From Rhodoglobus vestalii (GTDB taxonomy: Bacteria > Actinomycetota > Actinomycetes > Actinomycetales > Microbacteriaceae): 64,000 nucleotides of DNA. The stretch covers positions 2,356,001 through 2,420,000 of the forward strand of contig NZ_VFRA01000001.1 of NCBI RefSeq assembly GCF_006788895.1, in the 5' to 3' direction. Positions 60,911 to 63,698 of this stretch are shown here, in pieces. Position 1 is the stretch's first letter. The number at the start of each line of letters is the position of its first letter. The translations under genes were made by a program, and so were the position numbers. The notes below the pieces were generated by a model. The model was not told the origin of the DNA. It ran no database searches and saw nothing but the letters and a program-made list of their open reading frames with translations.

Positions 60911-61224
60911 TTGAAATATTCGGGACGGCTGACATAGGTTTCAGCAACGAACATGACTCCGCTGGTGGAATCAAGCATTGCCCTCACAGCCTCCGCCAAT
61001 TGCTCGGCTTTGGCTTGGGGGAGCACGGTGATGATCATCGTCAGCGTGTCGTATTCGTTGAAAAGCAGATCTCCGGAGCGTTGGCCATGGTGACCAATTC
61101 CTGAGACACCCGACACGGAGGTATAGCCGGTCGCTCCCGCGGATGCGATGAGTTCTCGCAGATCAGGTGCCTGACGAGCAGGAACGATGATTTCGATTCG
61201 TGTCATCTTGGTGAGGCCGTCCAT
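60907..61224 (-). CDS. PII-like regulatory protein of the DAB inorganic-carbon system
   Basis: A 105-residue PII-superfamily protein (TRIEIIVPARQAPDLRELIAS, a T-loop region SGVSGIGHHGQRSG, then LTMIITVLPQAKAEQLAEAVRAML and GVMFVAETYVSRPEYF). PII-like proteins (CPII) accompany bicarbonate transporters and sense adenylates with bicarbonate. Two starts are possible: ATG 61224, with GGAAGGA (61239-61233) 8 nt upstream, and ATG 61206, in an ATGA overlap with the dabA stop but without a good SD. The ribosome-binding site favours 61224, which overlaps dabA by 22 nt. An (ACA)16 tract ends 17 nt before this ATG. Confidence 0.82.
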   Translation of the reverse strand: MDGLTKMTRIEIIVPARQAPDLRELIASAGATGYTSVSGVSGIGHHGQRSGDLLFNEYDTLTMIITVLPQAKAEQLAEAVRAMLDSTSGVMFVAETYVSRPEYFK

Positions 61225-63698
61225 GAGCGTGGTCCTTCCACTGTTGTTGTTGTTGTTGTTGTTGTTGTTGTTGTTGTTGTTGTTGTTGTGCACTTTTTCC
61301 AGCCGACGGAGGTATGGCGATACCAGGGGGCGTCTGAGTATTCCCGTGCGGTGAGCGTAATCCAGTCGTTGTCCAAGAGATCGCGCAACACCTGGTTGCG
61401 CGACACGATCTGGCCGACCGTGACCAGTGGTGCCTGAATGAGCACCGCGAGCCGCATCGGCTCGTGGAACGCGTCTGCACCGACTCCGACAGACTGCCAC
61501 GGTAGGCCACGGCGCAGGTCGCCCTCGTGCCCCGAAAGAACCCCGGTTACGCCGATTGCGTTGTGAATTGTCTTCGTTCCGGCACCCAAGGTTTCTGGGT
61601 TGATGGTCGAAAAGTAGTACTGGTGATTGATCCACTGAGCGACAACCATCGGAGCGGTCATGATGGATTCCAGGGCAGATCCGCTGGCGTCGAGTTCGGG
61701 ACTGTACGAGTGCAAAAATACTCGGCGTGAGAGGTCAATGCCGCGAGTGATTTCTCGCGGACCGATGATCATGGCAGCGTTTCCGGCCAATCCGAGTTCG
61801 GGGTAGACCTCTGACCAATCGTGGGCGCGACGCCGGATGCGTGCCACCGATGACCGTGCACTTGCGCCCGGTAGGTCGTGAGCCCGCTCGCGCAGAAGGG
61901 AGTGCGCGGCGCCGCGCTGCAACTCGCTAAATTTTTTCACCCGCGCCGTGTGGCTCGGCGGAATCTGCCCGCCATCGAGGATCGAGATCGCGTCGGTCAC
62001 CGTATTGTGCTCGGCGGCCACAAAGACGCAGTCACTCGGAATACTGATTCCCCGCCGCTGAAGAATGGAGCGAACGTCAACGTCATTGAAGATGGCGACC
62101 GCGGAGCGTGCGTTTGCTGCTCCCGGATTGCCACCGCAGGCGCCGCAGTCGAGCGCCGACTGATAGAGGTTGTTCATCGACTCTGACGCGTGACCGGTTA
62201 AGACGATGAGGGGTGCGAAGCTGGTGAGCCCCATCATCCGGATCGCGGTGTCGGCGAGCGACGCACGCTCCTCCAGGGTGAAGGCATCCGCGACCGTCAC
62301 CGTGCTATCGAGCGTGGAGATTTGTTGCGACGAGAGCTGGGTGATTCGACCACTGAGCGCGGGGGCGAAGGTGCGAAGTGTGCTCGCGGCGCCATAGAAC
62401 AGTCCCGCGATTTCAGCGAGCGCGAAGGGACTCGCGGTGGTGCTCTCGGCACTGTGAAGTGCGCTTCGCATTGCATCGCGCAGTCGTCGGGAACTCACAT
62501 TTTTCTCGATCAGTTCGGGCTTTATCGGCTGCTCTGTCACGTGATGCCGCGGTTCCAGTAGCGCCGGCAGCGAGTTGATCGCACCGCGCGCGTAGTACGA
62601 AGAGAATCGAATGGGAACACCGAAGAATCCGGCAAATCCGACCGTAGCGACAGTGGCATCCGACTCAAGGTGACGCCGCATCCCCTCTGACCGCGGGTCA
62701 ATGCACATCACCACCTGAACTTCAGCGCTCTCGTGAGAGGGTTCGGGGTGCTCGAGCGAGCCGATCAGTGAGTTGCGGTAGTGGAGTTCATACGCTTTTT
62801 GCCAGGTGAATGGATGCTCGCGAGTTCCGTGTACCGCTAGGACGCGAGCAACTAGGGCCACATCCTCGCGGTGGGCGGCGTCTCCGGTCACCTGTTCTGC
62901 GACACGCTCGGCCCGAACCCAGAGCTCATCGTCTCCGGTGGAATCCGAGTGCGGTGCTTCCTCGGGCTCCGGGGGAGCATCAAGAATCGACCGAAGGCTG
63001 AACCGAACCGCCAAATAGCCTGTCAAATCGATGTCGCCCTGTTTGCCCGCCCGCCATTTGATGTGAGCGACCCATCCTGGCAGCGCGGCCAGCTCTCGGC
63101 GCAGTGCCGGAGTGACGGCGTCGCCAGCTATCGCAAAGTGAGCCAGAGCGTGCGCCAGTGCGCTGTCGGGTACGTCGGGCAGTTCGGAAATTTTGCGCCG
63201 TGCGTTCTTCGGCAACGACCGGTCAAACCGTGCAAGCTTTTTCCACGAGCGGTAAAACCCCTCGTGGTGGTGAGGCATTGTCCACAGCGGATCACGAGTG
63301 AGGAACGCGGCGATCCAGGTCGACATGCGCCGATCGATCGGGTCGCTGATTTCGGTGAGGTGCGATATCCGCTGACCGGGCTGCGAGAGTTGCATATCGA
63401 GGGAGGCTAGCCGCACCAATGAGATGTCGTGCGAGCCGATCGTGGTGCGCCCCGCGAGCTCGGGCACACGCTCGTGGAGGGCTAGCTCTAAGTCTTCTTC
63501 CCGTATTCGACCACTGGCGAGATCAGCGAGATAGGCCTCGATCGTGCGCGTCTTTGCTGCACCTGCGAGTTCCACGGCGTCGAATGGGGCACTTTCTTTG
63601 CCGGCGAGGGGATTGATGGCAATGAAGGAATCGAGCGGCCAGGTTGGTGTGACGTCGTGGGCTGCTGACGCCACATTCGTGCGGAGGATAAGGCTCAT
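61203..63698 (-). CDS. dabA: DabA (DUF2309), inorganic-carbon transporter subunit
   Basis: An 831-residue DUF2309 protein. DabA is a beta-carbonic-anhydrase-like subunit that, with the NuoL-like DabB, captures CO2 or bicarbonate at the membrane. Zinc ligands are visible as Cys332 and Asp334 (MCIDPRSEG), His503 (LTGHASESMNNL) and Cys518 (LDCGACGG). The spacing matches the Cys/Asp/His/Cys set described for Halothiobacillus DabA2, including 15 residues between His and Cys. The C-terminus is odd: after WYRHTSVGWKKC come 16 threonines encoded by (ACA)16, then VEGPRSWTASPR. ATG 63698 overlaps the dabB stop by one base. Confidence 0.93.
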   Translation of the reverse strand: MSLILRTNVASAAHDVTPTWPLDSFIAINPLAGKESAPFDAVELAGAAKTRTIEAYLADLASGRIREEDLELALHERVPELAGRTTIGSHDISLVRLASLDMQLSQPGQRISHLTEISDPIDRRMSTWIAAFLTRDPLWTMPHHHEGFYRSWKKLARFDRSLPKNARRKISELPDVPDSALAHALAHFAIAGDAVTPALRRELAALPGWVAHIKWRAGKQGDIDLTGYLAVRFSLRSILDAPPEPEEAPHSDSTGDDELWVRAERVAEQVTGDAAHREDVALVARVLAVHGTREHPFTWQKAYELHYRNSLIGSLEHPEPSHESAEVQVVMCIDPRSEGMRRHLESDATVATVGFAGFFGVPIRFSSYYARGAINSLPALLEPRHHVTEQPIKPELIEKNVSSRRLRDAMRSALHSAESTTASPFALAEIAGLFYGAASTLRTFAPALSGRITQLSSQQISTLDSTVTVADAFTLEERASLADTAIRMMGLTSFAPLIVLTGHASESMNNLYQSALDCGACGGNPGAANARSAVAIFNDVDVRSILQRRGISIPSDCVFVAAEHNTVTDAISILDGGQIPPSHTARVKKFSELQRGAAHSLLRERAHDLPGASARSSVARIRRRAHDWSEVYPELGLAGNAAMIIGPREITRGIDLSRRVFLHSYSPELDASGSALESIMTAPMVVAQWINHQYYFSTINPETLGAGTKTIHNAIGVTGVLSGHEGDLRRGLPWQSVGVGADAFHEPMRLAVLIQAPLVTVGQIVSRNQVLRDLLDNDWITLTAREYSDAPWYRHTSVGWKKCTTTTTTTTTTTTTTTTVEGPRSWTASPR
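61242..61289. repeat. Trinucleotide microsatellite (TGT)16 / (ACA)16 inside dabA
   Basis: 48 bp without a single interruption, TGT on the plus strand and ACA on the minus strand. In dabA it encodes 16 threonines near the C-terminus. On the mRNA its end touches the Shine-Dalgarno of the PII-like gene (GGAAGGA, 61239-61233). Pure trinucleotide tracts this long are rare in bacteria. Confidence 0.97.

Follow-up and report, generated by a model that had tools for sequence, protein, structure and literature searches.

A probable young in-frame ACA microsatellite beside a displaced stop codon at the dabA–PII junction of Rhodoglobus vestalii

Using a combination of repeat detection, comparison of relatives and RNA folding predictions, our analysis of a 64,000-nucleotide stretch of the Rhodoglobus vestalii genome (contig NZ_VFRA01000001.1, positions 2,356,001 to 2,420,000; hereafter the window) describes an uninterrupted run of 16 ACA triplets near the end of the transporter gene dabA, just ahead of the Shine–Dalgarno (SD) sequence of a gene for a PII-like protein. 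We consider it probable that this tract is a young in-frame microsatellite, lengthened by slippage at a permissive spacer and with an influence on PII translation that is modest at best and already saturated. Beside it, the DabA stop codon lies 18 nt downstream of its usual place, a feature absent from the initial annotation of the window; of the two features, the shift is the more surprising one, and its influence on PII output may exceed that of the tract.

The elements of the junction, in window numbering, are as follows.

61203..63698, minus strand: dabA, 831 aa (PF10070, E=2.9e-217; match to the solved DabA2 structure 9rd0 over residues 13-801)
61242..61289, minus strand: (ACA)16 tract, Thr804-819 of DabA (sequence and Tandem Repeats Finder, TRF)
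Minus strand, after the tract: last 12 codons of DabA, VEGPRSWTASPR, spanning the PII ribosome-binding site and the first PII codons
61233..61239, minus strand: SD sequence GGAAGGA of the PII-like gene, within the DabA codons for VEG (sequence; related purine-rich SDs in relatives)
60907..61224, minus strand: PII-like gene, 105 aa (PF00543 over residues 7-102, E=4e-20; PDB 5d4n over residues 7-104, E=1.6e-15)
61219..61221, minus strand: PII codon 2, GAC (Asp), which is AAC (Asn) in the sister genome G005
61203..61206, minus strand: dabA stop TGA over the PII Met7 codon, as ATGA

TRF finds 16.0 copies with a 100% match over the 48 bp of 61242–61289, in agreement with the initial annotation, which had read a perfect (ACA)16 here and placed the resulting Thr16 outside the conserved DabA fold. 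The latter is borne out by both fold comparisons, the Pfam match covering residues 9–780 and the 9rd0 match ending at residue 801, with the tract beyond each. Two nucleotides (GT) lead from the tract to GGAAGGA (61239–61233), and 17 nt separate it from the PII ATG at 61224, in line with the 2–3 nt and 17 nt given earlier. The interval originally assigned, 61224–61289, takes in the ribosome-binding site and start codon along with the tract, and dabA, with its stop TGA at 61203–61205, extends 22 nt into the PII gene. The entire PII ribosome-binding site thus lies within dabA, and the tract, being translated, is swept by dabA ribosomes. The DNA comes from a single-contig genome, with no obvious artefact seen.

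Among genomes of the genus, 5 of 27 encode the PII-like protein, and across the family 28 of 397 do (our own counted in both; one of the 28 matches is weak, E 3.6e-4). The sister genome G005 keeps the gene order and has a PII 98% identical to ours, but carries ACA ACC ACA (three Thr codons) at the tract site and has the dabA stop and the PII start joined in an ATGA. For DabA itself we compared the 120 listed of 5096 matches. The closest among them, a protein labelled Leifsonia rubra (P0001, known from the protein alone), shares 764 of 785 body residues (97.3%) and has Thr5 instead of Thr16, 11 codons shorter; beyond the Thr run its tail differs by one residue and retains the WTASPR ending. In the remaining 119 matches listed, no Thr run in the final 70 residues exceeds 3, and a search with the final 77 residues of DabA gave 30 matches, none outside the 120. 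Aligning DabA C termini with those of relatives, as the initial annotation had proposed, thus shows a run that varies (16, 5, and at most 3 among the matches listed), and the suggestion that length changes by steps of three agrees with the 16 versus 5 Thr of the nearest relatives, in which the frame is kept. Read from these sequences, 11 codons have been gained or lost in frame between the tract lineage and P0001, a difference between two lineages only at 97.3% body identity and one not seen beyond them among the matches listed.

The DabA tail that follows a GW motif at about residue 800 measures 4 to 38 aa in 119 of the 120 listed relatives (P0090, which lacks the motif, was excluded from the tail counts). 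As the tail lies beyond the fold, varies in length and has, in the junctions compared, last codons that carry the PII SD, it can be regarded as a spacer that tolerates length changes in multiples of three. Separately, other low-complexity tails rich in Thr, Pro or Ala occupy the same DabA site in P0103, P0107, P0117, P0120, P0017 and L055, for example TATATATPAATATP.

The length of the tract is not due to chance. In a sample of 464,000 bases, consisting of the window and 20 further stretches (16% of the genome), the second-longest perfect trinucleotide run is 15 bp, against 48 bp for this period-3 repeat; the whole genome holds (ACA)7 or longer at one place only, and (ACA)8 or longer was found in 2 of 398 family genomes, our own counted. 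The other, G362 (L021), has 13 and 9 units encoding Asn and Thr runs in two coding loops of one unrelated protein, which indicates that ACA arrays can arise away from operon junctions of the dabA–PII kind. Slippage is the simplest origin of the tract. The genome encodes NucS, and MutS domain V was not found in it by a search that recovered the domain in 11 of 14 control genomes (MutL lay outside that search). NucS of Mycobacterium smegmatis leaves 1–2 bp indels unrepaired (PMC11551767); by analogy, a genome with NucS and without MutS domain V may let slippage loops persist.

The position of the DabA stop sets this junction apart. From 37 loci we dropped three in which PII has no dabA in the stretch (L078, L079, L080), leaving 34 oriented junctions, 32 of them distinct. 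When the PII start was taken as the one overlapping the dabA stop where present, 27 of the 32 had RTGA, 3 had a dabA ending 2 nt before the start and 1 had TGATG; with starts chosen by anti-SD pairing the counts were 23, 7 and 1, and ours had its 22 nt. By either method, the dabA stop lies from 2 nt before to 4 nt into the PII start in 31 of the 32, and the 22-nt overlap is found at our junction only, so that a spacing of –22 nt stands against –4 to +2 elsewhere and against the range of about –4 to +3 nt typical of tight coupling. A codon-2 change accounts for the shift: with GAC instead of AAC, ATGA becomes ATGG, the usual DabA stop is gone, and translation of dabA runs 18 nt further to the next TGA in its frame, which overlaps PII Met7 as ATGA. 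The protein tail of P0001 shows the same stop shift. Between our PII and that of G005 there are 39 codon differences and only 2 amino-acid differences, codon 2 being one of them, which points to purifying selection on PII. A Met-Thr ATGAC stands at PII codon 7, 9 or 13 in all 32 distinct junctions.

How such a shift should affect coupling can be judged from published distance data. A study cited in the review PMC12548453 found that longer overlaps weakened coupling and that it was abolished at –25 nt; the review also notes that studies disagree, and that coupling in a –50 nt case (MS2) was explained by RNA unfolding. PMC10666635, where increased spacing was tested, describes a short overlap or very short distance as essential for coupling. 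On these accounts weaker coupling at PII Met1 is to be expected, and we suggest that stop–start coupling at PII Met1 is probably weakened. As an observation apart, two loci with identical junctions (L018 and L062, perhaps one strain twice) have three copies of ATGACC at the start of PII, which then reads MTMTMTMNNLT, and L014, L015 and L061 carry a single copy.

Our folding predictions, which took the junction with 0 to 30 ACA units (n) as equilibrium folds and ignored ribosomes on dabA, show most of the change at low unit numbers. To open the SD is predicted to cost 6.8 kcal/mol at n=0, 3.2 at n=1, 3.0 with 16 units and 2.9 with 30; for the start region the values are 14.7, 9.1, 9.0 and 8.9 kcal/mol at the same unit numbers. 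The 20 nt before the SD respond further, at 13.5 (n=0), 8.5 (n=1), 4.5 (n=5), 2.3 (n=8), 2.1 (n=16) and 2.0 kcal/mol (n=30), with little change beyond about 8 units, so that 16 units lie on a plateau. The initial annotation had held that ACA RNA stays unstructured, and the predictions are consistent with it: none of 200 synonymous recodings drawn at genome codon frequencies left the ribosome-binding site as open as the ACA tract does, and the upstream 20 nt are more open in only 2 of the 31 other junctions. G005 is one of these two, and without a tract it is as open (2.53 versus 2.89 kcal/mol). With SDs placed by pairing, 10 of the 31 other junctions have a more open SD (ours being 11th of 32) and 19 a more open start region, which makes our start region ordinary; a cruder SD placement ranks ours 20 for the SD, 20 for the start and 3 for the upstream stretch of 32.

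These predictions bear on two proposals of the initial annotation, a tunable standby site controlling PII and a frame-neutral contingency locus. A standby site, as described in PMC3936740, is a single-stranded stretch before a structured ribosome-binding site that governs initiation. Here the upstream stretch is predicted to be open, and the start region costs about 9 kcal/mol at every n of at least 1, with a median of 8.1 for the other junctions. Since predicted SD and start accessibility are nearly constant with repeat number, from n=1 to n=30, a rheostat set by length is not supported; with an ordinary start region, a translated tract and an upstream effect that saturates near n=8, neither the tunable standby site nor the contingency locus finds support.

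The row of ACA triplets could also act as a translation enhancer. Yang, Figueroa-Bossi and Bossi (PMC3879156) report that ACA triplets before the SD raise translation of Salmonella yifK, that replacing four ACAs in dppA lowered expression over 100-fold, and that a 30S anchor, perhaps via S1, was suggested. Our tract has 16 units placed 2 nt from GGAAGGA, and one 542-aa open frame of the genome has four S1-domain matches. Across 31 relatives, a first count gave 0.77 ACA per 36 nt before the SD versus 0.27 in the dabA body (p 0.012; controls 0.46 versus 0.33), a count that preferred starts overlapping the dabA stop and put the SD in the wrong place at several loci. With starts and SDs assigned by anti-SD pairing the excess is gone (0.58 versus 0.27, 12 of 31 above, p 0.26), and these relatives do not support an enhancer as an old trait of the dabA–PII junction. 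By analogy with the Salmonella genes, the tract could raise PII translation now that coupling is probably weakened.

Taken together, we posit the following course of events. From the end of the fold (GW, near residue 800) to the SD-bearing codons, the DabA tail would act as a spacer of little consequence at the amino-acid level; there a short run of Thr codons would have expanded in this lineage through replication slippage until it held 16 ACA units, favoured by a repair setting (NucS present, no MutS found) that is not expected to remove small loops. The RNA of the tract would be open and, with its ACA row directly before the PII SD, would assist 30S binding at PII to a modest and already saturated degree. 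This lineage also shows a DabA stop displaced 18 nt downstream, which, judging by the published distances, would leave weaker stop–start coupling at PII Met1.

Several observations weigh against so neutral an account. DabA tails are Thr-rich, at 20.3% versus 6.8% in the body across 119 of the 120 listed relatives, and A+C is enriched ahead of the SD, with 26 of the 31 other junctions above their dabA body (29 of 32 with fixed windows); at control RTGA junctions of the same genome the corresponding figure is 22 of 35, in a slightly different window. Together these enrichments hint at some selection on the RNA or the tail, and only hint at it, because related species are not independent. A 48-bp run against a 15-bp runner-up, directly before an SD, is also a notable coincidence for pure drift. 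Finally, the NucS data in the parts of PMC11551767 used here concern 1–2 bp indels in Mycobacterium, and 3-nt loops fall outside that evidence.

The alternative that would make most of the tract is compensation: coupling was lost after the codon-2 change, and the ACA array was selected as a 30S landing site, through S1 or directly, so that PII initiates by itself. The co-occurrence of the stop shift and a longer Thr run in our genome and P0001 fits this, as do the yifK and dppA precedent (PMC3879156), the loss of coupling at –25 nt in the study cited by PMC12548453 when set beside our –22, the four S1-domain matches, and an openness that no recoding equals and two of 31 junctions exceed upstream. 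Yet the ACA excess in relatives vanishes with SD-chosen starts, G005 is equally open upstream without a tract, our start region is ordinary, coupling by RNA unfolding is described at larger overlaps (MS2, –50 nt, in PMC12548453), and the enhancer data are enterobacterial and do not come from inside a translated upstream gene. We regard this compensation as unlikely, and distinctly improbable in its full joint form, in which a single codon change abolishes Met1 coupling and an ACA array grown by slippage becomes an independent, length-adjustable PII enhancer that sets the amount of regulator per transporter. That the number of units works as a heritable rheostat, setting how much PII is made for each DabA, as first proposed, is very unlikely: the 11-codon difference between close relatives, the in-frame steps, the missing MutS domain V and the predicted fall of the upstream opening cost from 4.5 to 2.1 kcal/mol between n=5 and n=16 would suit it, whereas the flat SD and start costs, the nearly flat upstream cost above n=8 and the passage of dabA ribosomes through the tract do not.

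Two readings would make the tract incidental or doubtful. Coupled reinitiation could occur at Met7, where the dabA stop forms ATGA at 61203–61206, giving a short PII without the MDGLTK leader; the Pfam and PDB matches to PII begin at residue 7, and the Met-Thr ATGAC recurs in all 32 junctions. However, the leader, of the form xxLTxM, is largely conserved in relatives and retained here, and a good SD serves Met1 with none of note seen before Met7, so that we hold a short PII to be highly improbable. An assembly or consensus error in the repeat length is the least credible explanation of all, a very remote one: there is one assembly only, but 48 bp is short relative to most sequencing reads, and an independent deposit, P0001, has Thr5 at the same site, from which the run is real even if its exact length is wrong.

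Two further candidates were set aside. A DabA–PII frameshift fusion was considered, given that the PII reading frame continues open upstream across the tract (as poly-Asn), but an ACA array gives no cause for a one-base shift; stalling at rare codons was rejected because ACA makes up 13.2% of Thr codons and is 16th rarest of 61 (246 long open reading frames), which is not rare enough. MazF cleavage at ACA, for which the genome has one match of the PemK/MazF type, and a possible role of poly-Thr in the protein were also considered.

The junction can be set beside several known systems. Simple sequence repeat contingency loci are reportedly found in actinobacteria, the slippage switch of a bifidobacterial pilus being one. 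Like them, the tract has a length that differs between relatives, and it too is actinobacterial; in contrast to them, its repeat unit of three keeps the frame and so offers no on/off state, and its predicted effect saturates. The NTGA stop–start coupling seen within a few nucleotides at 31 of 32 dabA–PII junctions is echoed elsewhere in this operon by TGATG at dabB/dabA and GTGA at PII/DUF6671, but the dabA–PII overlap itself is 22 nt, with ATGA at PII Met7 and not Met1. As for yifK and dppA, targets of GcvB (PMC3879156), the likeness lies in ACA triplets just before an SD, there tolerant of position; the differences are that those genes have a few separate ACAs, antagonised by a small RNA and measured for their effect, whereas here 16 contiguous units lie inside an upstream coding gene and are known from sequence alone.

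Should the tract prove to drive PII translation, nature would here have put a coding microsatellite in place of translational coupling, and the operon's ratio of regulator to transporter could shift by drift or by tuning with no frameshift involved. Neutral slippage, too, would make the locus a clean natural experiment, with two close relatives 11 Thr codons apart before the same gene; G005, with its ATGA coupling intact, and the tract difference among relatives provide material at hand for testing both ACA enhancers and the effect of coupling distance in an actinobacterium. A search by title and the start of abstracts found no paper on a DabA-tail repeat or on the dabA–PII junction, and PII is nowhere mentioned in the text of PMC13144422.

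On the minus strand the genes run dabB, dabA, PII-like, DUF6671, each overlapping its neighbour, and by its gene content the operon is one for inorganic-carbon uptake (DAB).

63698..64000, minus strand: 3' end of dabB, a gene of 504 aa that extends beyond the window to roughly position 65212, counted in window numbering (PF00361, E=9.3e-32)
63698..63700, minus strand: dabB stop TGA, whose final A doubles as the A of the dabA ATG (TGATG, 1-nt overlap)
60065..60910, minus strand: DUF6671 gene, with a GTG start codon that forms GTGA together with the PII stop (PF20376, E=2.2e-36)

It resembles the DAB complex in its dabB–dabA pair, assigned by Pfam, and in the match of DabA to solved DabA2 (9rd0), and differs in that PII-like and DUF6671 genes follow in overlap and that the 9rd0 match stops before the tail. 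The PII-like protein resembles 5d4n in sequence over PII residues 7–104. We take 5d4n to be CPII of Thiomonas. In G005 a 281-aa DUF6671 homologue likewise follows PII.

Other long arrays occur in the sampled genome stretches. A perfect (GCCGGG)10 at L035:5005-5064 (G000:C1 near 565005) encodes Pro-Ala repeats within a minus-strand frame of 207 aa, one of several open there, and is another long array with steps of three. The 9-mer ATCCCGCGC stands in almost 5 copies at L048:7719-7762 (G000:C1 near 2432719), near the start of a 261-aa frame. A G12 homopolymer at L041:9089-9100 (G000:C1 near 1409089) lies inside a 258-aa open frame, presumably, by impression only, that of a transposase or integrase, and is a possible frameshift site.

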